NCBI GenBank assembly: GCA_025655595.1
Contig: JAHXIO010000001.1
Coordinates: 434,001-498,000 of the forward strand
Direction of reading: 5' to 3'
Length of the DNA: 64,000 nucleotides
Origin: Candidatus Thiodiazotropha sp. (ex Monitilora ramsayi)
Lineage (GTDB): Bacteria > Pseudomonadota > Gammaproteobacteria > Chromatiales > Chromatiaceae
The stretch's first letter is position 1; each line of letters starts with the position of its first letter. The position numbers and the translations under genes were made by a program. Shown here piece by piece: positions 36,869 through 49,866 of this stretch. A model generated the notes under the pieces. It searched no databases. It was not told the origin of the DNA and saw only the letters and a list, made by a program, of their open reading frames with translations.

Positions 36869-37846
36869 ATGCAGGTGCATAAGCTTGTGTCCGCAGCTGC
36901 GGCAGTTGGTTTTATCTTTTCCGGTATGGCAGTTGCCGGCGTGCCCAAGGACCTACCGCTACCCACCGGTACCCCCACTGCCGATGAAATCGCCGATCAG
37001 GTCTATTTCGTCAATCACTTCTACGCGCTGAAAAAATACGGCATCACCAACAACAACCGCGACCCTAAGAAAAGCCGTAAAGCCAAACCTGGCAAGATTA
37101 CCGTATTGGTTAATAAGTCTGCAGGCAGTAGGCCGACCACGATCACACTGGAACGCTATCTCAACAACGAATACAGCGACGGCGCCACCAACGCCCAGGA
37201 TATTGCCATCTTTCGTTCCGGCAAGCTGAAAGGCACCGGCATGTTGATCACCGACTATGTGGATGACAACAAGAGTCAGTCCTACTCCATCTGGCTGCCG
37301 GCCCTGCGTAAGATTCGCCGTTTTGCGGAACCCGCCCATGATGATGCCTGGGGCGGTACTGATTTCACCTTCGGCGATGTGGTGTTGCGCAAGCCGCAAC
37401 ATGAGACACATGAACTGCTGGGTACCGAGACCTTCAATGATTGCCTTGGCGCGATTGCCAAGGATGAAGCTAAAAACAAGTATCTGCCCAATCCGCCCGA
37501 TGCAGCCTGCGATCACAAAGGAAAAGAGGTCTACAAGCTGAAGAGCACGACCAAGCGGGAGAACTGGTGGTATGACAATCGGGTGAGCTATATCGATACC
37601 AAGACCTTTGCCGACTACCGCACTGAATATTTCAAGGGCGGTGAACAGGTCAAAGTGATCGACCGCAACTGGGTCAGTCTCGGTCTGGATGATCCGCGCG
37701 CCCTCTCTTGGGGTTACTGGTACGGCAAGACCCTCGCTACCGGACATGAGACCTGGGCGGTTATTCCACAGGATGTGGTACAGATCAACCAGGATTGGGA
37801 GTCCGATTTCTGGTCGGAAAAGACCCTTAGAAAAATCAAACGCTAA
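36869..37846 (+). CDS. LolA-like outer-membrane lipoprotein-sorting protein (first copy)
   Basis: A 325-residue periplasmic protein with a signal peptide ending at AVAG near residue 24. The central part carries AWGGTDFTFGDV, the motif that marks PF17131-type LolA-like proteins (DUF1329-related, COG2834). The protein has the lipid-carrying LolA fold in this family, not the classical LolA sequence. First gene of an operon with a DUF1302 outer-membrane protein and an MMPL/RND exporter, so a role carrying a lipid or lipoprotein between exporter and outer membrane is the natural inference. The substrate is unknown. Confidence 0.78.
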   Translation: MQVHKLVSAAAAVGFIFSGMAVAGVPKDLPLPTGTPTADEIADQVYFVNHFYALKKYGITNNNRDPKKSRKAKPGKITVLVNKSAGSRPTTITLERYLNNEYSDGATNAQDIAIFRSGKLKGTGMLITDYVDDNKSQSYSIWLPALRKIRRFAEPAHDDAWGGTDFTFGDVVLRKPQHETHELLGTETFNDCLGAIAKDEAKNKYLPNPPDAACDHKGKEVYKLKSTTKRENWWYDNRVSYIDTKTFADYRTEYFKGGEQVKVIDRNWVSLGLDDPRALSWGYWYGKTLATGHETWAVIPQDVVQINQDWESDFWSEKTLRKIKR

Positions 37847-37856
37847 AGATAAACGG

Positions 37857-37878
37857 GGATGCCTGATCTCAGGCATCC
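37857..37878 (+). other. Intercistronic hairpin, LolA-like/DUF1302 gap
   Basis: A nearly unbroken 10-bp stem GGATGCCTGA/TCAGGCATCC with a minimal loop lies 10 bases after the stop of the first gene. It is followed by A-rich rather than T-rich sequence, so it is more likely a processing or stabilising structure within the operon than a full terminator. Confidence 0.55.
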
Positions 37879-37984
37879 TCAAAAAATATTTACCGCCACA
37901 ACATGGTGGTACACATCGCTTCGAATCCGGCATAAAAAATATTTGAGATCCGGTTTTTTCGTCGAATCTGGGAGGAATCATTAG

Positions 37985-40144
37985 ATGTTCAAACGCTGCA
38001 AGATTTATCAGTCGATACTGCTCGCCTTGGTAGTACCAGGGTCTGCGATGGCTGAGATTGAGATTACCGGGTTTCTGAAAAATGAGACTTCGGTTTTTAC
38101 CCGGGATGGTCAGGTGACGGGTGAGGCCGAAACCATGCTTGATGAAAGGGGCCATGAGAAGGGTGATCTGCTGAAATTCGAGAATTCAGCACGAGTCTTC
38201 ATGAATGGAGATATCGGTGAAGAGAGCACTTGGCATGCGGATCTGAACTTCATCTACGATTCTGAAGGGATTAATAGTGATTACAAGGGCCATAAGCTTT
38301 ATACCCAGCACGACTATCTGAGAGAACTCTATCTTGATTCTACGCTGTGGGATTGGGATCTTCGTCTGGGTAAACAGCAGGTTGTCTGGGGAACTGCTGA
38401 TGGTATTAAGCTGTTGGATATCATCAATCCTACTGACTTCCGTGAATTAAACCAAAACGCCATGGAAGATTCCCGTATTCCCATCTGGATGATCAATGCA
38501 GAGAGAAATATTGGAAATAGTGGGAATGTGCAGTTCATAGTCTCTCAGGTCGAGGAGAACAAGATACCCGGTCTGGATCGTGATGGTGCTGCGGGCCATC
38601 CGTTCTTGATGAAAGGCGTCGATACCATTACGGGAGAAGTGAATGGATTTCTTCATGTTGCACCTGCACTGGCGAATGTGGCTGGTAGCTTTACCAATGC
38701 TACCCAGGCCCCGCTTTTGCCGGGGGGTATTCCCAATCCTCTGTTTAGTCCGTTAGGTCTGGTGCCTTTTTCCGGTTTGACCGTTGATGGATTTGCCAGT
38801 GGACCGTCGATGTTGCCTCTTGGCAATCCCACGGGGGCCGGGGATTTGGGTTTCATTGCTCAATGCGGATTGAACTTTGCCTGTTCTGCAGCAACCCTGG
38901 GTGACGATCCTAATGCAAATGCGTTCGTTACCAATCTGATGCCAGTGAATAGCTCAAGTCCTGTTGATACCAGTTATTCTCCATCCGCACCAACCTCTGC
39001 GTTCGAATATATGCCGATGGCATCTTTCGCCACCTTCAATACCTTCGCAAAGTTAGATCCGTCTTTAGGGATGTTTACTGGCGCAACTTCCGAATATGTC
39101 CGTGACTACCCGGATGATAGCGATGTTAATGCAGGTTTACGCTGGAAGCAGTCTCTTGACAACGGTTTTAACTACTCACTTAACTATTTCTACCATTACA
39201 GCGCCAATCCGGATGTGAATTTGAGCTGGCACGATGCAGTTACGGGAGAAAAACTAACCGAGCAGTTGTCGCCTGCGGGTGACTTTATTGACAATGGCAC
39301 AGGTTTACCGGGGTCGGATGGAATACCAGATCTTGCAGATTTCACCCAGAGCCTGACGCCAGATCAACTTCCTACCAATGTGTTGCCTGGTCAACAGCTT
39401 CCCGTTACAACCCTATTACATAATGGTGCAGGTGAGTTTTATGGCGCATTCGATCCTACTGGCGGGATGGGGTTATACAATCCGAACCCTGTAAAGTTAC
39501 GGTTTACTGAAACATTACACAGAGTTCACAGTATCGGTACTTCCTTTGACTATGCAATAGATGCCGGTGACTTGCCCATTGTTCTGCGTGGTGAGTTTTT
39601 GTATGACAGGAATGACAAGCAGCCGGTGATCTATCGTCATCTGCTGGCTCATGGTGCTCTTGCCAGCTCTCTTGTCATGGAAGATGCCGACTACTTCAAG
39701 TATGTATTGGGTCTGGATGTTACCGTTATGACCAATCTGCTGGTCAGTGGTCAATTCATCCAGTTCAACAACTTGGATTATGTTGAAGAGAATCGTACTT
39801 GCACCACACAGACGGGTCAGAGCGCCGATTGCTCAACTTACACAGCAGACTTCGCAACACTCCACCTGACCAACGGCCTTAACATGGGCTACGAGAATAA
39901 AGAGTTCTACTCCCTCTTTTTCTCCAAGCCTTTCGGTCCTTCTCAGGAGCATCGCTGGAACAACATCACGATCTACGAAGAGGGTGGCGGCAAGTGGAAC
40001 CGTTTCGATGTTGAGTATTCCTTCACCGATACCCTGATCGGGTCTGCAGAGTGGAACCACTACTGGGGTGATGAGGATTCGACTTTCGGACAGTTCGCCG
40101 ATTCCTCCAACCTTCAGGTGGGCATCAAATGGCTCATCGAATGA
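37985..40144 (+). CDS. DUF1302 family outer-membrane protein
   Basis: A 719-residue exported protein. The signal peptide ends in SAMA near residue 23; the mature part starts with IEITGFLKNETSVFT and has many alternating strands, with RLGKQQVVWGTADGIKLLDIINPTDFRE characteristic of DUF1302. The C-terminus ends in a beta strand (LQVGIKWLIE), as in beta barrels. Family members are found beside LolA-like proteins and MMPL exporters in Pseudomonas, Marinobacter and relatives. The loop-rich middle (about 200-370) is low in charged residues. A barrel or lipid-acceptor role in the outer membrane is inference. Confidence 0.78.
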   Translation: MFKRCKIYQSILLALVVPGSAMAEIEITGFLKNETSVFTRDGQVTGEAETMLDERGHEKGDLLKFENSARVFMNGDIGEESTWHADLNFIYDSEGINSDYKGHKLYTQHDYLRELYLDSTLWDWDLRLGKQQVVWGTADGIKLLDIINPTDFRELNQNAMEDSRIPIWMINAERNIGNSGNVQFIVSQVEENKIPGLDRDGAAGHPFLMKGVDTITGEVNGFLHVAPALANVAGSFTNATQAPLLPGGIPNPLFSPLGLVPFSGLTVDGFASGPSMLPLGNPTGAGDLGFIAQCGLNFACSAATLGDDPNANAFVTNLMPVNSSSPVDTSYSPSAPTSAFEYMPMASFATFNTFAKLDPSLGMFTGATSEYVRDYPDDSDVNAGLRWKQSLDNGFNYSLNYFYHYSANPDVNLSWHDAVTGEKLTEQLSPAGDFIDNGTGLPGSDGIPDLADFTQSLTPDQLPTNVLPGQQLPVTTLLHNGAGEFYGAFDPTGGMGLYNPNPVKLRFTETLHRVHSIGTSFDYAIDAGDLPIVLRGEFLYDRNDKQPVIYRHLLAHGALASSLVMEDADYFKYVLGLDVTVMTNLLVSGQFIQFNNLDYVEENRTCTTQTGQSADCSTYTADFATLHLTNGLNMGYENKEFYSLFFSKPFGPSQEHRWNNITIYEEGGGKWNRFDVEYSFTDTLIGSAEWNHYWGDEDSTFGQFADSSNLQVGIKWLIE

Positions 40145-40178
40145 TGCGCTAGCATCGAAATCACATACAGAAGGGAGT

Positions 40179-40210
40179 GGCAGGGGACCGAGGTTATTCG
40201 GGCCCCTGCC
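40179..40210 (+). other. Intercistronic hairpin, DUF1302/RND gap
   Basis: An 8-bp stem GGCAGGGG/CCCCTGCC (40179-40186 with 40203-40210) encloses a second small hairpin CCGA/TCGG. There is no T run. It lies 35 bases before the exporter ATG and could slow or tune expression between the two genes. Confidence 0.5.
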
Positions 40211-40244
40211 TAAACTGGTCGATGAAAATCACAGGATCTAAACC

Positions 40245-43091
40245 ATGAGCGGTTCCGCATCCAATCAATCTCAAAACAACCAGTGGGCTGAGCGCTACGC
40301 CGATTTTGTCATTAAGTTTCGCTGGCCGTTGATGCTGATTTTGTTGGTGGCAACCATCGTTGCTGCGCTGCAGGTCAAGAATCTGGATATGCGTAACGAT
40401 CCGGATACATTGTTGCCGCCCACCAACCGCTACGTTGCGACCAACCTCTATGCCGAATACAACTTCGGTATGGGTAACCTGATGGTCTTTACCCTGCGTA
40501 TCAACGAGGGTGATGTCTATAAGAACTGGTTTGTTAATAAGGTGCAGGAGATTCACAATCGCCTGGTTGAATTGCCCACCGCACGCGAATCCAACTTTAT
40601 CGATATTGCGGCGAAGAAGATCAAATTCATGGGAGCCGATGAGAACGGCCTGGTCTTCAAGCGGCTAATTCCCACGGAAGGCATCAGCGATGATCCTGAT
40701 AAAGCTGAGCAGCAGCTCGCATTTCTCAAAGAGGGTATTGAGACCAACCCTGTGATCGGGCCCATGCTCGTGGGTTTCGAAGATGCGGAAGGCAACAAGT
40801 GCGAATTTACCGAGAAGGATGAGAAGAACTGTGTTGCCAAATCGCTCTATATCATTGGTGACTACACCGATGAGGTGAAAGAGATCTACCTCCCCTGGGT
40901 GCGTGAAATTCGGGCGATGATGGATGAGTATGGGGAGGACGACCGCTTCGAGGTCTTGGTGGCGGGTGAACCCTACTTCCTCGCCTGGATGCTGGCGGAC
41001 CTTGTCAATAAATGGTGGCTTTTCGTGATCTCATTCGCCATCGTCATCGGCGCACTCTGGTTCGAGTTCCGTAACTGGCGTGGTTCCCTATTCCCCATTC
41101 TCGGTGTCAGCGCGACTATCATCCTGACCCTGGGTCTGATGGGTTTCTCTGCTTTTAAACTGACCACCATGATGGTGCTGACCCCAATGCTGTTATTGGC
41201 TATCGGTATCGGCCACTCGGTTCAGGTTACGCGCAGGTTTATGCAGGAGCAGGCAAAATCGGGCGACTGCGAATCGGCCGCTAGAATCTCCATCTCTCAC
41301 ACCATCGTGCCGGCCACCCTCTCAATCATCACCGATATGGTGGGATTCGCCACCCTGGCCACCGTGGATATATCCTTCTACAAGGCCTATGCCTACTTCG
41401 GTATGTTCGGCATGCTGACGCTGCTGTTTACAACGACCACACTCATACCCCTGCTCATGATGACCTTCCCCTGCAGCAATGTGGAGATGGGCGAGGGACA
41501 TGAGCGATCCTGGGAGACGAAGGTTGGGGGCGTAGTCTCGAGTATGCTGAAGGGACCAGGAAAGGCTATTCCCATCGGTATCGTGCTTGTGATTATCGCC
41601 TGGTCTACCTACTACACCGAGATCGGCCGGGGGGTCTCAGCTTTAATGGCAGGCGAATCGGGTCGGAGCGACCCGGAAGTGGCCAGGATTCAGGACGAAT
41701 TCGATATCATGCCGGGGGTTGAGAAGGGCATCAATTACTCCCGTGCCGCCTTCAAGGAGAAGTCGATCACCATCCAGCATATCGAGCGTCTGAACGATAT
41801 CATGCCTGGGGTTATCTCTGTCTCTATCCCGATTCGGGGCAAGGAACCGGTGGCTGAACTCTGTATCGAGACCTACTTCCCCGAGGAACTCTACGACATC
41901 GAGGACCCGGATGAGAAGGTGGCACAGTGCGAGAAGTACAAAGCGGAACTTGGCTGTTGGGATCCGGATCCCTGTGGTGCTCAGGGCATCTTCAACCAGG
42001 CGTCTGTCTTAGCCGATATCGAAGCGCTGGAGGAGTGGATGCGAAGCCATCCTTTTATCGGCTTTACCGGCTCTTATGCTCAATATATCCGCTTGGTTAA
42101 CATGCTGCTGACTGCGGAACCCGGTGAGCAGCCGGATATCAAGGATCTCTACATTCCGACCTCGGAGAAGCTGCGTTCCATCGATCCTGAAGATGACCGA
42201 AACGGTGACGATATCGTTCAACTCTACAACGGTTTGCTGGAGACCATGACGGAAGAGGGTGATATGGACTCGTTCGTCATGAAGAACTGGAACGAAGGCG
42301 TGGTGATGGGATTCATCAACACCATGGATCCGATAGAAACCCATCAGGTTACGATGGATATCCAACAGTATATCGAGGATCATAAAAACGATCCGGGATT
42401 CAGCCAAGTCCATTTCGGTCTGCGTTCCGGTCCGGTAGATGATCTCTCGGGAGATACTGATCAACTGTCTCAGGATGGCGCCAGCTATGTCAGGCCGGCG
42501 GTAGGTGGTTTTCTCGGCGCCACCGAGGCAACGCGTGAAGTAGCGGTGGACAATTGGTTGACAGGTCCGCTGCTGACTGCGGCCGCCGTTTTTGTAATTG
42601 CGACGCTGATTTTCCGCTCCATTGCCGTATCGACCATTTTGATGGTACTCCTGTTTATCACGCTCTATGCGCAATATGGCTTGGGCGGTTATATGACTGT
42701 TATCGGTAACTGGTCAGGCAACCTGGCGTTTCACCTGCAGGTCGCATTGAGTATCGCCATGGGGTTGGGTATCGACTATGGCATCTACATGATGTCGCGA
42801 TTGCGTGAAGAGATGCAGAACACCGGCGGGGATTGGCAGGCTTCGCTGATCAATACCCTCAATACAACGGGGTCAGCGGTGATTATCTCGGTTATTGTCT
42901 TGCTCGGCTGCTTCATACCCCTGTTGAATACCGACCTGGCCAATACCTGGGGACTGGGTGTCTACATTAGTCAAGCGCTGCTGATTGACGTGGTGACCGC
43001 CTTGACCATTCTGCCAATGCTTGTCGCCTGGCTGAAGCCCAGGTTTGTCTTTGGTGAGTACAAAGGTACAGTCGCAACTCAAAAAGCGTGA
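40245..43091 (+). CDS. MMPL/RND superfamily exporter
   Basis: A 948-residue polytopic inner-membrane protein with two RND halves. The first half has a membrane helix at about 27-48, a large periplasmic domain (about 50-245) and a helix bundle at about 250-435; the second half has a periplasmic domain and a final bundle from about 770 to 935. IGIGHSVQVTRRF in the first bundle and MGLGIDYGIYMMSRL in the second match MMPL/HpnN-like exporters. No membrane-fusion or TolC gene accompanies it; instead it is paired with a LolA-like protein and a DUF1302 protein. Such exporters move lipids or hydrophobic molecules; the cargo here is unknown. Confidence 0.85.
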   Translation: MSGSASNQSQNNQWAERYADFVIKFRWPLMLILLVATIVAALQVKNLDMRNDPDTLLPPTNRYVATNLYAEYNFGMGNLMVFTLRINEGDVYKNWFVNKVQEIHNRLVELPTARESNFIDIAAKKIKFMGADENGLVFKRLIPTEGISDDPDKAEQQLAFLKEGIETNPVIGPMLVGFEDAEGNKCEFTEKDEKNCVAKSLYIIGDYTDEVKEIYLPWVREIRAMMDEYGEDDRFEVLVAGEPYFLAWMLADLVNKWWLFVISFAIVIGALWFEFRNWRGSLFPILGVSATIILTLGLMGFSAFKLTTMMVLTPMLLLAIGIGHSVQVTRRFMQEQAKSGDCESAARISISHTIVPATLSIITDMVGFATLATVDISFYKAYAYFGMFGMLTLLFTTTTLIPLLMMTFPCSNVEMGEGHERSWETKVGGVVSSMLKGPGKAIPIGIVLVIIAWSTYYTEIGRGVSALMAGESGRSDPEVARIQDEFDIMPGVEKGINYSRAAFKEKSITIQHIERLNDIMPGVISVSIPIRGKEPVAELCIETYFPEELYDIEDPDEKVAQCEKYKAELGCWDPDPCGAQGIFNQASVLADIEALEEWMRSHPFIGFTGSYAQYIRLVNMLLTAEPGEQPDIKDLYIPTSEKLRSIDPEDDRNGDDIVQLYNGLLETMTEEGDMDSFVMKNWNEGVVMGFINTMDPIETHQVTMDIQQYIEDHKNDPGFSQVHFGLRSGPVDDLSGDTDQLSQDGASYVRPAVGGFLGATEATREVAVDNWLTGPLLTAAAVFVIATLIFRSIAVSTILMVLLFITLYAQYGLGGYMTVIGNWSGNLAFHLQVALSIAMGLGIDYGIYMMSRLREEMQNTGGDWQASLINTLNTTGSAVIISVIVLLGCFIPLLNTDLANTWGLGVYISQALLIDVVTALTILPMLVAWLKPRFVFGEYKGTVATQKA

Positions 43092-43095
43092 ATAA

Positions 43096-43125
43096 AGCCG
43101 GCCTTGTGCCGGCTGTTATTCTGTC
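43096..43125 (+). terminator. Hairpin between the convergent exporter and ABC operons
   Basis: A 7-bp stem AGCCGGC/GCCGGCT with loop CTTGT (43096-43114) followed by GTTATTCT. The T run is short, so it is probably a moderate terminator in the 53-base gap where the two operons converge. Confidence 0.6.
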
Positions 43126-43144
43126 GCCGTATTTTTGGGCCTAT

Positions 43145-43972
43145 TCAGGAATGTCTGCTGTTATCCTTCGGTGACTGCTTTCGGCGACGGCGGCTGAACA
43201 TGCGGTTCAGCTTGATTCTTACCCGCTCTCCCAACGGTTTGTTCTGAACCGGGCAGGCGCTGGAGATTGAGATCGGTGGCTTCGGAATGGTACTCCACTC
43301 ATCCACAATCTGACCGTCAGCTAATTTGATCAGACGGCTTGCGGCCTCCTTCACATCCGGGTCGTGGGATGAGATCAGGAAGGTAGTACCAAGCCGCTGG
43401 TTGAGGCCCTGCATGAGATGGATCAGATTGCGCCCTGTCTGGGTGTCGAGATTTGCGGTAGGCTCGTCTGCCAGAATGATCTGTGGTTCGGTGGCAAGTG
43501 CCCGTGCAATGGCCACGCGCTGTTGCTGCCCACCGGAAAGCTGATCGGGTTTGCGGTAACCCAGGTGTTCTATCTCCACCTCGCGCAGCCAGTGATTGGC
43601 GATCTCCAGGCTCTCCTCTTTGCTCTTGCCTTGCAGTTGGCAGACATAGGCGATGTTCTCCCGGGCGCTGAAGACACGGATCAGGTTGTAGGCCTGGAAG
43701 ACGAAGCCGATGTGATCGAGCCGGAAGCGGGTGCGCCGATCCTGAGTCATTTGCAGAATGTTCTGGTCGAAGACCTCGACGCTGCCGCTGTCCGCTGATT
43801 CAAGCGCACCGATAATATTGAGCAGAGTGCTTTTCCCGGAACCTGATCGACCGGCAAGGACTGCGAACTCGCCCTGCTCGATATCGAGATCAATTCCGTG
43901 CAAGGCCGGGTGTGGCATGGTGCCCACCCAGTAGCATTTGTGCAGATCTCTCGTTTTGATAATACTGGTCAT
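43145..43972 (-). CDS. LolD/MacB-type ABC transporter ATP-binding protein
   Basis: A 275-residue ATPase with Walker A GRSGSGKST at about 40-48, signature LSGGQQQRVA near 143 and Walker B IILADEPT near 165. These are type VII ABC ATPases that power LolCDE- or MacB-type permeases without direct substrate translocation. It is the last gene of a four-gene operon. The C-terminal 30 residues are an unusual basic extension with an SRRRRK run. Confidence 0.88.
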   Translation of the reverse strand: MTSIIKTRDLHKCYWVGTMPHPALHGIDLDIEQGEFAVLAGRSGSGKSTLLNIIGALESADSGSVEVFDQNILQMTQDRRTRFRLDHIGFVFQAYNLIRVFSARENIAYVCQLQGKSKEESLEIANHWLREVEIEHLGYRKPDQLSGGQQQRVAIARALATEPQIILADEPTANLDTQTGRNLIHLMQGLNQRLGTTFLISSHDPDVKEAASRLIKLADGQIVDEWSTIPKPPISISSACPVQNKPLGERVRIKLNRMFSRRRRKQSPKDNSRHS

Positions 43973-43991
43973 GCAGTAATCTCCGACCCGC

Positions 43992-45242
43992 CTATTGTAT
44001 GCGCAATGCCTGGCTGATTGAGAGCCGCGTGGCTCGCCAGGCCGGGTAGACGCCGGCCAGCAGGGCCGCGATCAGTGTTGTGCCCAGAATTCTCAGTGCT
44101 GAGTCACTGGTTAAGTCTGGGTAGATTACCGGGTTCATATAGAAAAACTGGAATGCGTTGGCGTATCCCGTGAGATCGATACCTGTTCCCGACAGGGCGT
44201 ACACCAGCAGACTCCCGACCAGATAACCCAGGCTGGCACCAATAAAGATCAGTAGTACGGCCTCCAGCAACAGCATGCTAAAGATCTGGATTCGGGTGGT
44301 GCCGATTGCGGCAATGACACCTATCTCCTTGTTACGCTCGTGAAGTGATATCAGCATGGTATTGAGAATCTCGACCAGGACCAGAATTACGACCACGAGG
44401 ATAATGACCAGGCCATAGGCGTCACTGAACTCCAGCCACTGCCTGACCATGGGGTCGAGTTCCTGCCAGGGCATGATCTCATAGGATTGGCCGGAGAGCT
44501 GCTGTGCAAATAGGCGAACCACCTGGCCGGTGTTCTCGTGGTGGTCCGCACGCACGACAATGTCGGTGACGGACTGCCCCATATCGAGCCAGGTTTGAGC
44601 CGTATTGAGTGGGATCAGTGCGAGGGTGCGGTCTATCTGTGGTGCACCGGTCTCGAGAATGCCGCGCAGAATAAAGACTTCTGAGACCATATCGCCCGCC
44701 GGGCGTTGCGCCATCAGTATGACCCGATTTCCCAGATCCGCGCCGATGGTTTCGGCAACTGTGGCACCGAGCAGCAGATCCCTCGACATACCGGGTCGAA
44801 GCCAGTCGCCCCAGGTCACATGCTCATGGATCGACGTGACCCAGGTCTCTTGTTCAGGGTCGGTTGCCATGATCTGTACGCCGGCACTGCCGCCGCCTAC
44901 CGATGCCAGGCCTGAGGTTCTGATGCGCTGAGTCCAGCCCACAATCTCAGAATAACTCTGCATCAGCCGGGTCACCTCTTCCGGCTTGTTGATCCGGTCT
45001 CGCAAATTCTGGGAAGCCTCGAAGCCCCTGGCATGTATTTGAACATGCCCCGTATAGCTCAGGATGAAGTTGGTCTTCATCTGGCTCAGCCAGCCATCAT
45101 TGAGTGCGCTTAGCAGGGTCAATACGGCAATACCGAAGATCATCGTCAGCAGCGTGATCGTTGTACGGCGGCGGTTTCGCATCAGGTTGCGAATTGCGAA
45201 CATCAAGTAGGTTGTGATTCCCAGTCGCGTCCGGTTAGCCAT
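43992..45242 (-). CDS. FtsX/LolC-type ABC permease (second of pair)
   Basis: A 416-residue permease: an N-terminal membrane helix (about 29-50), a MacB_PCD-like periplasmic domain to about 265, then three membrane helices with the FtsX domain (ERNKEIGVIAAIGTTRIQIFSMLLLEAVLL). It shares layout with the preceding permease, so the two probably form a heterodimer like LolC/LolE. Its start overlaps the end of the other permease. Confidence 0.87.
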   Translation of the reverse strand: MANRTRLGITTYLMFAIRNLMRNRRRTTITLLTMIFGIAVLTLLSALNDGWLSQMKTNFILSYTGHVQIHARGFEASQNLRDRINKPEEVTRLMQSYSEIVGWTQRIRTSGLASVGGGSAGVQIMATDPEQETWVTSIHEHVTWGDWLRPGMSRDLLLGATVAETIGADLGNRVILMAQRPAGDMVSEVFILRGILETGAPQIDRTLALIPLNTAQTWLDMGQSVTDIVVRADHHENTGQVVRLFAQQLSGQSYEIMPWQELDPMVRQWLEFSDAYGLVIILVVVILVLVEILNTMLISLHERNKEIGVIAAIGTTRIQIFSMLLLEAVLLIFIGASLGYLVGSLLVYALSGTGIDLTGYANAFQFFYMNPVIYPDLTSDSALRILGTTLIAALLAGVYPAWRATRLSISQALRIQ

Positions 45243-46479
45243 AGCGGATCGCCTCCGCCGGTTGCAATTGGCTGGCGCGCCAGGCCGGGTAGAGACCAGC
45301 TACCATCGAGGCTATCAAGATGGCACTGATGGTGATACCGAGGCGACCCAGTTCCAGCTGTGGATAGACCAGAGGGTCCACGTAGAATCGGGAGGTGGAG
45401 CCGAGCAGGATTGAGAGGTCGATACCGGTGATACCCGTGATGAAAACTGTAATCAGCCCCAGTAGCGTTCCACTAAGCGTACCCAGAATGCCGATGAAAA
45501 GTGCTTCGGTAATCAGCAGGGCCGCCACTTCCTGGCGGGTGGTGCCGATGGCCATGAAAACGCCGAACTCCCTCGTACGCTCGAGCATGGAGAGCAGCAG
45601 TGTGTTGAGTTCACTCGCTATAACGATGAAGAGAACGACACCGATGAAGAGGTAGAGAAAACCGTTGTGGAGCGTTACCCACTCCTTCATTACCGGGAAC
45701 ATGACATACCAGGGCATGATCTCCAATGGTTGCTCATGTAGCTGCTCGTTCAGCTGTTTGACTGCCTTGTCGATGTTCTTTTCCGGTAGATTGATGACAA
45801 AGGTCGTGACCTGACCTGGCATGTCCACCATCTCCTGCAGGGTCTCCAGGCTGGTAATGGCCATGCCGCGATCGAGCCCCATCTCTCCGCTGGTGATAAT
45901 GCCGATCAGGGTGAATGATTCCGCCACCATGACACCATAACGATCGTAACCGACGACGATGACTTCATCGCCGAGACGGACGTTCAGGTTATTTGCGGTG
46001 GTGGCGCCAAGTATCAGGGTATAACTGTCCCCGGGCTGAAGAAAGCGGCCGATACCGATACGCTTTTCCAGCTCTGTGACCCGGGTTTCCGTATTGGGGT
46101 CCATGCCAATAAGCATCACCCCCTCGGTTGTCTCATCCGAAGCGACCAGACCGAAGGATTCCAGCCGCTGACTGTGATTTTCTATGCCGGATGTCTCAAG
46201 CGTCTCTGCCACTTTTTCTGGATTTCGAATGTAATCCGAAAGCTCTGGTTGTTGGAAATACCCTTGGTGATGAATTTGAATCGAGCCGATGATGGCCTGC
46301 TGGAAATTTCCCAGCATATTCCTATGCAGTCCCTCATTGAAACTCCAGAGAAAGATCAGCGAGGCGAGACCTACCGCGATGGCACCGACGGTGAGCAGGG
46401 TTCGCGGCAGGTGACCCAGGAGATTTCGTAATGCGACCGCCAGTGTTATCTGATTGATTGAGGGGCGTGACGCGTGCAT
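45235..46479 (-). CDS. FtsX/LolC-type ABC permease (first of pair)
   Basis: A 414-residue permease with the same layout: membrane helix at about 25-45, periplasmic domain, and three C-terminal helices with the FtsX motif ERTREFGVFMAIGTTRQEVAALLITEALFI. It overlaps the second permease by eight bases and follows the LolA-like gene by 11 bases. The LolC-like hook that recruits LolA is not clearly visible, so which permease contacts the LolA-like protein is unknown. Confidence 0.87.
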   Translation of the reverse strand: MHASRPSINQITLAVALRNLLGHLPRTLLTVGAIAVGLASLIFLWSFNEGLHRNMLGNFQQAIIGSIQIHHQGYFQQPELSDYIRNPEKVAETLETSGIENHSQRLESFGLVASDETTEGVMLIGMDPNTETRVTELEKRIGIGRFLQPGDSYTLILGATTANNLNVRLGDEVIVVGYDRYGVMVAESFTLIGIITSGEMGLDRGMAITSLETLQEMVDMPGQVTTFVINLPEKNIDKAVKQLNEQLHEQPLEIMPWYVMFPVMKEWVTLHNGFLYLFIGVVLFIVIASELNTLLLSMLERTREFGVFMAIGTTRQEVAALLITEALFIGILGTLSGTLLGLITVFITGITGIDLSILLGSTSRFYVDPLVYPQLELGRLGITISAILIASMVAGLYPAWRASQLQPAEAIRYG

Positions 46480-46490
46480 GCGGTGATTTT

Positions 46491-47252
46491 CTAGGGCCCG
46501 GATCTGGCACCCCTGACCTCAGGGGTGAAGAGTGTATCGTCCAGGCTGACGTTAAATTCGATCGTTGTCAGTGTGATGACGGTCCGTTTGCCTTCATCGT
46601 CCATGGGGGTCATTGTCCAGCGGGTGGGGATGGTCCGTCCTGCCATTTCCTGAATGTGATCAAAAACCATACGGCGGCTGGCACGTTTATTACACTGATA
46701 TTCGAGCGCTAGCGGCATACCGTCAGCCCGGATTTTCTGGTGCAATCTCTTCCAGGTCACTGTGGCAGTGGGTGAGGGGGTGGATTCTATGGTGATGACA
46801 GCCTGATCGCCTGTTCCCTTCCGCTCGATGATACGGTGGGTGTAGTTGTCGATCAGCGAGTCGGTTTCCAGGAGGTCCTGGTTGTTGAAGTCCGAGCCCA
46901 TCCAGGGATCCTGCATCATGGCCGGTGAGATGTTGATGCGTCTTTCCAATTTGGGTAAATACATGGATAAGGTGTTATCGACTTTCAGGAAAACCGTACC
47001 TTTGGTTTTGCGTGGAGAGAGTATCTCCATCCGGAACCGGTTGCCCTGCATGTCATCATGGCTGCGGAATGACATGCTCCGTTGCCAGTCTGGACGGACG
47101 ATGTCGACCCGGTATTCTGCAACGGTTGAGCTGGAGCGCATGAGTGACTCACTTTTACGCAGCAGTTCGACAGCCTCCGGGTCGCTCTCTCCCGCGAGGA
47201 CGTTGGTAACCAGAAGTGCCAGTAGGTAACTTGTCTTTTTAAACAACGACAT
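46491..47252 (-). CDS. LolA-like outer-membrane lipoprotein-sorting protein (second copy)
   Basis: A 253-residue periplasmic protein from the ATG at 47252 with a signal peptide ending at VLAG; a TTG-initiated form eight codons longer is less likely. The core QDPWMGSDFNNQDLLE is the counterpart of the WGGTDFTFGD motif of the first copy and marks the PF17131-type LolA-like fold. First gene of the ABC operon, so it most likely accepts cargo released by the two permeases. Sequence similarity to the first copy is limited to the fold motif. Confidence 0.82.
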   Translation of the reverse strand: MSLFKKTSYLLALLVTNVLAGESDPEAVELLRKSESLMRSSSTVAEYRVDIVRPDWQRSMSFRSHDDMQGNRFRMEILSPRKTKGTVFLKVDNTLSMYLPKLERRINISPAMMQDPWMGSDFNNQDLLETDSLIDNYTHRIIERKGTGDQAVITIESTPSPTATVTWKRLHQKIRADGMPLALEYQCNKRASRRMVFDHIQEMAGRTIPTRWTMTPMDDEGKRTVITLTTIEFNVSLDDTLFTPEVRGARSGP

Positions 47253-47325
47253 GAGTCGATGGTGCTCCGCGCGCAATAACTGAGTAAGATAATTAGATTA
47301 TAAGCATTTCATAATATATAGCCAA

Positions 47326-49152: not shown

Positions 49153-49866
49153 ATGGATCGTTCGATTGTTTTTACAGGAGTTTTCATCTTGATGCTATTC
49201 TCTGCGGGGAGTCTTCCTGCCTCTGTCATCGTTACTAACGACTGGGCCACGGCCACTGTGCAACTGAGGGATCAGAAAGGTGGTGCGGTTCAGGCCTCCT
49301 ATACAACCCAGGGTGAGACAGGTTTCGATATCGATGCAGAAAGCCCGGGAGGTGACTTTGCACATGCGGAGATTAATCGGACCACAGGTTCCGGCTCCCT
49401 GGTTACCGCAAGAGTTGTTACTGACGACACTGCCGCAATGGAAGTGGAAGCGTGGCTTGAGACGAGCTGGCTTTTTTCTGTGACCGATACGTCAGCCGAC
49501 TTTCGCATCGGTCTTTTTGTGGATATCGGTGGCGAATTTACGTCCGGTTTTTCCCTTTATGATCTGTCGAATCAGGCGCTTGTTTCCACGGAGGCGCTAT
49601 TCAGTTATGGATATATCGGCGCAGCAGGCACATTGCTAGCCGGGCATGACTACCTATTCAAAGCGAGCATACCCAGAGTGGACGGTGATGAACTGAGAGA
49701 TCTTGTTTATGACGGAACCTCCGGCCTGGATTTCAGTGTTGATGCTGAGATTATCTACAACCCGGACAGAACCCATATTCAGATTTCTGTGCCAGAACCA
49801 AGCCCGATGCTGTCTCTCTTTGTCGGTCTTGGATTGCTTGGGCTCGTCAAATGGAGCCGCTGTTAA
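49153..49866 (+). CDS. PEP-CTERM sorting domain protein
   Basis: A 237-residue exported protein with a signal peptide (cleavage near LPAS, about residue 23) and a beta-rich body without recognisable domains. The last 25 residues, starting VPEPSP, then a hydrophobic helix and KWSRC, form a PEP-CTERM signal. Exosortase EpsH/XrtA-type enzymes recognise this signal; none is encoded in the window. A strong AAGGAG precedes the ATG. PEP-CTERM proteins often go with exopolysaccharide or biofilm matrix, but the role of this one is unknown. Confidence 0.85.
   Translation: MDRSIVFTGVFILMLFSAGSLPASVIVTNDWATATVQLRDQKGGAVQASYTTQGETGFDIDAESPGGDFAHAEINRTTGSGSLVTARVVTDDTAAMEVEAWLETSWLFSVTDTSADFRIGLFVDIGGEFTSGFSLYDLSNQALVSTEALFSYGYIGAAGTLLAGHDYLFKASIPRVDGDELRDLVYDGTSGLDFSVDAEIIYNPDRTHIQISVPEPSPMLSLFVGLGLLGLVKWSRC

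Follow-up and report, generated by a model that had tools for sequence, protein, structure and literature searches.

Two convergent operons in the hemA–pth interval of a Candidatus Thiodiazotropha genome are read here, by analogy with named systems, as two independent envelope exporters, a reading that we regard as rather likely: unit 1 would be an AmeABCD-like assembly with an RND pump, and unit 2 a LolCDE–LolA-like ABC exporter. Each pump probably carries greasy molecules in the direction of the outer membrane. The nearest named homologues stand at 91–92%. Within the window, the whole stretch of 64,000 nucleotides analysed, the seven genes are uninterrupted open reading frames, listed here with two candidate signals:

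36869..37846, plus strand: LolA1, periplasmic LolA-fold carrier, 325 aa (PF17131, 62.6 bits; cut-off 30)
37985..40144, plus strand: DUF1302 outer-membrane β-barrel, 719 aa (PF06980, 56.1 bits; cut-off 23.2)
40245..43091, plus strand: MMPL-type RND transporter, 948 aa (PF03176, 89.1 bits; cut-off 20.5)
43096..43114, no strand assigned: terminator-like hairpin where the two operons converge (7-bp stem; seen in a consensus scan only)
43145..43972, minus strand: ABC ATPase, 275 aa (PF00005, 118.1 bits; cut-off 25)
43992..45242, minus strand: ABC permease 2, 416 aa (FtsX and MacB_PCD, both above cut-off)
45235..46479, minus strand: ABC permease 1, 414 aa (FtsX and MacB_PCD, both above cut-off)
46491..47252, minus strand: LolA2, periplasmic LolA-fold carrier, 253 aa (PF17131, 131.1 bits; cut-off 30)
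47297..47325, minus strand: sigma-70-like promoter candidate of the ABC operon (TTGGCT-17-TATAAT, 10/12 consensus)

Separating the end of the RND gene (43091) from that of the ATPase gene (43145) is a gap of 53 bp, and the two permease genes overlap by 8 bp. The promoter candidate is weak because shuffled sequence yields more such sites (mean 9.8) than the 5 that the scan found. A sequence-only reading of this DNA had described a plus-strand operon of a LolA-like carrier, a DUF1302 protein and an MMPL exporter, converging with a minus-strand operon of a LolA-like carrier, two permeases and an ATPase; it had further assigned both carriers to the PF17131 type and the operons to different inner-membrane engines, one RND-type and one ABC-type. 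The Pfam matches, all above cut-off, bear out this description.

From the inner membrane or the periplasm, the proton-driven RND pump of unit 1 would take a hydrophobic or amphiphilic molecule. LolA1 would shield this molecule on its way through the periplasm, and the DUF1302 barrel would hand it to, or through, the outer membrane. In unit 2, ATP-driven extrusion would release a lipid or a lipoprotein out of the inner membrane and pass it to the LolA2 carrier. For both units the analysis establishes domains, predicted folds, gene order, distribution and separability; direction, energy coupling and order of hand-over are what we infer.

Components and relatives of the RND unit

At the N-terminus of LolA1 is a signal-like stretch, and Cys 192 and Cys 214 are invariant; its predicted model adopts the DUF1329 fold. 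The DUF1302 protein is predicted to form an OprD/AlgE-type outer-membrane barrel, with modest Foldseek TM-scores (about 0.2–0.36 by query length); FadL-type barrels are absent among the 50 matches listed, which is not evidence against kinship. The RND transporter carries the motifs GIGHS (at 321) and GLGIDYG (at 840), and its best NCBIfam match is TIGR00921 HAE3 (109.7 bits, below the cut-off of 351.9). It shares the MMPL-type RND fold with HpnN, BstA and MmpL3, as seen in local profile matches (44.4, 18.0 and 28.6 bits), all below the respective cut-offs of 751.85, 1400 and 1400.

Among 80 named loci surveyed for gene order, 77 have the RND open reading frame, 48 of these with more than 5 kb of upstream sequence; LolA1 and then DUF1302 lie directly 5' of the RND gene in 43 of the 48, the genus's own loci included. 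The order of the triplet is kept far above chance. In the RND tree (78 rows), a Magnetococcales clade sits between gammaproteobacterial groups; because a single bad row, L155_RND_3639, captured the root, we make no claim of RND transfer.

As described in the available part of its source, AmeABCD of Castellaniella defragrans, a system for apolar monoterpene efflux, combines an RND pump with a DUF1302 protein and a LolA-fold carrier of the DUF1329 type (PMC6394551). Likened by component kinds to this partial description, unit 1 likewise encodes together a DUF1302 protein, a LolA-superfamily carrier and an MMPL-type, putatively HAE3-type, RND pump. Three points stand against the likeness: LolA1 is PF17131-type with no match to DUF1329 (PF07044), the operon in the window comprises three genes with flanks on the opposite strand and no AmeC-like (COG4447) fourth gene, and the RND score lies below the HAE3 cut-off. 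Compared with the same portion of the source, unit 1 also differs in lying outside any monoterpene island and occurring mostly in dsrA-bearing genomes.

The same component kinds recur in the accessible account of P. putida PP_0765 (DUF1302), PP_0766 (DUF1329), PP_2018 and PP_2019 (efflux transporter), for which co-folding suggested weak PP_0766–PP_0765 and PP_0766–PP_2019 contacts (PMC10866462). As far as that account extends, the set differs from unit 1 in occupying two loci by locus tags, in having a fourth periplasmic protein and in its DUF1329 carrier. In P. putida, growth on Tween 20 is reported there to require the DUF1302 and DUF1329 genes, a phenotype also consistent with uptake (PMC10866462). 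The RND half is therefore not unnamed in kind, contrary to the earlier statement that no named system has this composition; the unit in the window is a variant with a PF17131 carrier and three genes, and the RND/LolA-fold/DUF1302 kind now extends to PF17131 carriers.

Components and relatives of the ABC unit

Unit 2 resembles LolCDE–LolA in combining an ABC ATPase, two FtsX/MacB-type permeases and a LolA-fold carrier. Unlike LolA, the carrier has no PF03548 match, PF17131 being the sole Pfam match of LolA2 at E 0.01; its family profile matches the structures 9tp6, 4z48, 3bk5 and 3buu. The ATPase, with a Walker A motif (GRSGSGKS) at 41 and LSGGQ at 145, scores 205.6 bits against LolD (TIGR02211, cut-off 307.75) and 212.5 bits against DevA (TIGR02982, cut-off 295.8), and permeases 1 and 2 score 131.2 and 114.3 bits against lolCE (TIGR02212, cut-off 362.45). 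The earlier labels 'LolC/E-like' and 'LolD-like' thus hold as resemblance, since none of the three ABC parts comes near the curated Lol cut-offs. At other sites the genome encodes a separate housekeeping LolA, a LolC/E-type permease and a LolD-like open reading frame, and unit 2 is distinct from this housekeeping pathway.

A further relative is Borrelia BBJ23-29, for which the available part of the source describes a MacB-like ABC exporter, a LolA-fold carrier and an outer-membrane barrel, with a non-polar ligand proposed (PMC13078400). On that partial description, it shares with unit 2 the pairing of MacB-like exporter and LolA-fold carrier, and differs in having one permease gene, an Omp85-family barrel and TPR proteins; the ABC operon in the window encodes no barrel.

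Elsewhere, ABC/LolA units reappear as a kind in its own right, at times with their own candidate barrel. Such a barrel, of 411–419 aa, accompanies distant units in 5/8 genomes, and in one more genome with a distant unit (G078) a Pfam DUF1302 protein adjoins it. The genome of the window has no convincing copy of the 411–419 aa barrel, the single match (13.8 bits) falling on another DUF1302 protein. Homology of this candidate barrel to DUF1302 is not established, the match to DUF1302 profiles being a short motif (hhalign probability 11%, E 0.0027).

Possible cargoes of the RND unit

To our knowledge, it is not settled how insoluble sulfur crosses, or stays within, the envelope of sulfur oxidisers, and a search of open-licence papers found no transport system for it. 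One reading, which we hold to be rather unlikely, is that the RND unit helps dsr-type oxidisers to handle zero-valent sulfur, exporting or relocating across the envelope S8, polysulfanes or the lipid/protein hull that encloses periplasmic sulfur globules. Suggestive of this is the distribution of dsrA, present in 44/50 RND-positive genomes outside the genus, themselves picked by similarity to one protein. Because that sample is uneven, we give no weight to a Fisher test that sets the 50 named genomes against the background of the class (p 1.4e-14). When the class is sampled evenly, dsrA is found in 6/7 triplet genomes versus 95/305 others (p 0.005), or in 5/6 triplet genomes with the window's own genome removed (p 0.014), neither value taking account of descent. 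Genomes with DUF1329 carriers show no clear link (23/53 versus 78/259, p 0.076). The triplet count includes G210, whose contig starts 123 bases before the RND gene so that the upstream genes are unseen; G346, at first scored RND-positive, was removed as a LolA–RND pair without DUF1302. In G188 the RND gene is cut by the contig end, and DUF1302 and LolA1 are present.

Proximity to dsr genes is seen in G303, where about 6 kb separates a dsr cluster from the triplet beyond it, both on the same strand, and in L124, where a DsrC-family gene adjoins the RND gene on the opposite strand. Against the sulfur reading, a dsr cluster beside the triplet was seen in that one genome only: with 16 proteins from the G303 region as queries, a tblastn search of 188 loci, many short or lacking the RND gene, found no second one once the three of G303 were set aside. 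The same search returned DsrC-family matches in L124 and L127, a DsrL-like match in L066 and response-regulator matches in L072, L075, L088, L108 and L160. The triplet also occurs without a dsrA match in G191, as does the RND gene in 6/50 named genomes, and 95/101 dsrA genomes in the class sample have no triplet, which places it outside the core dsr pathway. The more specific proposal, a dedicated envelope carrier that would shuttle zero-valent sulfur (as S8 or long polysulfanes) or the hydrophobic sulfur-globule coat between inner membrane, periplasm and outer membrane of dsr-type oxidisers, seems to us unlikely. The dsrA association is new here, and no paper on the triplet in sulfur oxidisers was found among the matches listed from the open-licence literature; the triplet, which turned up mainly in genomes with dsrA, offers a concrete candidate for envelope sulfur transport that is open to deletion.

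It is similarly doubtful that unit 1 is a general solvent or hydrocarbon tolerance pump, one among several LolA/RND paralogues. Three further RND/LolA-fold units are present in the genome: LolA–RND without DUF1302 (C2 near 138 kb), DUF1329–DUF1302–RND (C3 near 200 kb) and TetR–RND–LolA_like (C14). Relatives already described act on monoterpenes, Tween 20 or long-chain alkanes, or sit in aromatics regulons. The RND gene is, however, kept in all 22 Thiodiazotropha genomes and is also found in Thioglobus relatives (assemblies of 0.9–1.6 Mb) and Ruthturnera (1.52 Mb, L167), and we know of no hydrocarbon degrader among these three groups.

Separability of the two units

The two units are separable. 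Among 36 other genera of the family, each represented by one genome and some of these incomplete, the RND gene occurs in 9, a close ABC permease in 3 and both in 2; outside the genus, a close ABC permease accompanies the RND gene in just 6/50 RND-positive genomes. About 0.98 Mb separates the units in the Lamellibrachia barhami symbiont, and an RND match at 1e-40 is missing from all eight genomes in which a distant ABC/LolA unit occurs. This profile runs against the earlier proposal of two routes feeding a common outer-membrane acceptor, being the outcome, independent occurrence of the operons, that the proposal itself had named as refuting it, and makes a single machine, with RND and ABC engines serving one DUF1302 barrel, quite improbable. 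In favour of a single machine are the presence of both units in 22/22 genomes of the genus and their adjacency in 10/22, as well as in the relatives G040 and G044. Unit 2 may also borrow a barrel, given that distant units have their own in 5/8 genomes and that this genome shows no convincing copy of it; the weak match of that candidate barrel to DUF1302 profiles speaks against this. Against the independence of the two exporters, adjacency in the genus and in related symbionts could reflect selection and not shared descent.

Replacement of a missing LolB step in lipoprotein delivery by either unit is highly improbable. The TPR–ispE junction is the lolB site in some gammaproteobacteria; here it has room for no gene, and lolB (PF03550) was not detected in 22/22 genus genomes or in 12/13 other family genera examined (five of the 13 genomes being less than 90% complete). 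The RND unit was nevertheless rejected as a LolB substitute, as lolB is present in 6/8 RND-positive class-sample genomes (G346 included) and in 5/7 triplet genomes, and 9/12 other LolB-lacking genera, some with incomplete genomes, have neither the RND gene nor a close ABC permease. LolB-free delivery in Caulobacter is attributed to a bifunctional LolA (as cited in the available part of PMC13078400).

Composition of the two operons

Encoded in the window are probably two separable exporters of hydrophobic cargo. The seven genes claimed by the sequence-only reading are all present, none is interrupted, and each encodes a domain above its Pfam cut-off.

Genes of the two operons (each with a Pfam domain over cut-off)
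36869–37846, plus strand, LolA1
37985–40144, plus strand, DUF1302
40245–43091, plus strand, RND
47252–46491, minus strand, LolA2
46479–45235, minus strand, permease 1
45242–43992, minus strand, permease 2
43972–43145, minus strand, ATPase

The plus-strand triplet is a variant of the Ame-like RND exporters (AmeABCD itself combining DUF1302, a LolA-fold DUF1329 carrier and an RND exporter), enriched among genomes bearing the sulfur-metabolism marker gene dsrA, an association not corrected for descent. The minus-strand operon is an accessory Lol-like ABC unit with close relatives confined to a narrow clade. The convergent operon ends lie 53 bp apart, with a terminator-like hairpin (43096–43114) in between. 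Upstream of LolA2 is a promoter-like candidate site, a weak one because the scan yielded fewer such sites than in shuffled sequence. At 49153–49866 is a secreted-like protein whose PEP-CTERM tail falls below threshold (16.8 bits, cut-off 20.7).

The window genome (4.68 Mb in 46 contigs) is that of a Candidatus Thiodiazotropha, symbionts of lucinid clams; the closest named RND homologues (91–92%) come from this genus and group with the window protein in the RND tree. Four further loci of the genome carry LolA-fold or RND genes.

Other LolA-fold/RND loci in the window genome (G000; C, contig)
C2:137940–141792, LolA-RND pair without DUF1302
C3:197567–203516, DUF1329-DUF1302-RND set
C14:25118–28167, TetR-RND-LolA_like set
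C18:4510–5493, lone LolA1-like gene (52%) adjoining a threonyl-tRNA synthetase-like gene

Separate distribution of the operons

Both operons occur in 22/22 genomes of the genus, counting G009 and G012, in which the permease is cut or in two pieces. RND and permease 2 are 0.9–1.1 kb apart in ten of these, 6.6–24.6 kb apart in seven and on different contigs in five. Where the operons are apart, other gene clusters lie between or beside them (loci L072–L077, L085, L087 and L088), several holding ORFs of ~1050–1170 aa.

Among 36 other genera of the family, with one genome each, RND is found in nine, a close ABC permease (at least 50% identity) in three and both in two. The survey outside the genus took in 50 of 61 RND-positive genomes, in which a permease search (E 1e-28) gave ten matches, six of them close: those of tubeworm symbionts G368, G369, G384 and G408, and of G385 and G383. 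ABC genes lie downstream of RND in 15/51 named loci with >4 kb of downstream sequence, all from the genus, tubeworm symbionts or MO_103.B15. Wherever both flanks are visible, the close ABC operon adjoins pth or its operon, not RND in particular. In the Lamellibrachia barhami symbiont (G384) it follows pth at ~2.875 Mb, with RND near 1.893 Mb, as compared on scaffolds of equal length. Distant two-permease units, with permeases 25–32% identical to permease 1, occur in eight genomes (G024, G052, G059, G067, G071, G078, G090 and G091), none of which has an RND match at 1e-40. Owing to this independent occurrence (close permease in 6/50 genomes, both operons in 2/36 genera), the separation in G384 and the eight genomes without such an RND match, the proposal of one machine feeding a common outer-membrane acceptor is not supported, and cooperation of the two units is unlikely.

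Housekeeping Lol genes and a possible barrel partner

The window genome encodes a canonical LolA (PF03548, 153.4 bits), one LolC/E-type permease exceeding the curated cut-off (518.3 vs 362.45) and, overlapping the end of that permease gene as judged from its translation, a LolD-like ORF (L071, 7533–8279); the window ABC operon, whose permeases and ATPase are far under the Lol cut-offs, is thus an additional unit. LolB (PF03550) was not found in the window genome or any genus genome (0/22), nor in 12/13 additional genera in the family (completeness is <90% for five of the 13 genomes); it was found in 18/21 genomes of other families and 270/312 of the class sample.

Following the ATPase in five of the eight distant units is a protein of 411–419 aa with no Pfam match, which shares a short motif with DUF1302 and gives a weak profile–profile match to it. 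Its sole match in the window genome (13.8 bits) is on another DUF1302 gene. In G078 (L065, contig C62) a Pfam DUF1302 gene (61.1 bits) adjoins an ABC/LolA-type unit whose LolA_like gene is read from the opposite strand. Together these make a barrel partner for ABC/LolA units plausible, and the ABC operon could conceivably borrow the window DUF1302 protein.

Possible link to sulfur oxidation

The two dsrA genes of the window genome (C7:124674–125876, 610.7 bits; C2:703884–705086, 553.6 bits) are consistent with sulfur oxidation. dsrA is enriched among carriers of the triplet, a possible link to dsr-type sulfur oxidation; that the triplet itself serves the handling of zero-valent sulfur seems rather improbable. 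Of 312 genomes sampled evenly across the class, 101 have a dsrA match (96 over the curated cut-off) and eight carry RND, including G346, whose LolA-RND pair without DUF1302 is left out of the triplet count. With genomes taken as independent of descent, dsrA is found in 7/8 RND genomes vs 94/304 others (p 0.0019), in 6/7 triplet genomes vs 95/305 excluding G346 (p 0.0053; G191 is the exception), and in 5/6 with the window genome also left out (p 0.014). As a control, dsrA is found in 23/53 DUF1329-bearing genomes vs 78/259 others (p 0.076), and comparing the triplet genomes with the remaining DUF1329 genomes gives p 0.039. Against the link, none of these tests takes descent into account, and the triplet is missing from 95/101 dsrA genomes. 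Outside the genus, dsrA is present in 44/50 named RND-positive genomes, the remaining six being of unstated completeness.

Also favouring the link, the triplet of G303 lies on the same strand as a dsr cluster and ~6 kb beyond it (C2:830561–855620, L174–L176), an arrangement without a second instance among the extracted loci compared. The cluster encodes DsrO, DsrH/TusB and DsrF/TusC over cut-offs, CobB-type (DsrN-like) and DsrL-like proteins, dsrA by profile, and presumably the further dsr genes that we named from ORFs and gene order. Between cluster and triplet are genes for a siroheme synthase, a rhodanese-like protein and a sensor kinase/response regulator pair. At L124, a DsrC-family gene adjoins RND on the opposite strand.

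Retention of the triplet in the complete, reduced 1.52 Mb genome of the symbiont Candidatus Ruthturnera (L167) suggests a function under selection. Directly 3' of RND in two gammaproteobacterial MAGs is a DUF302 gene (L154:3044–3511 and L158:7832–8308).
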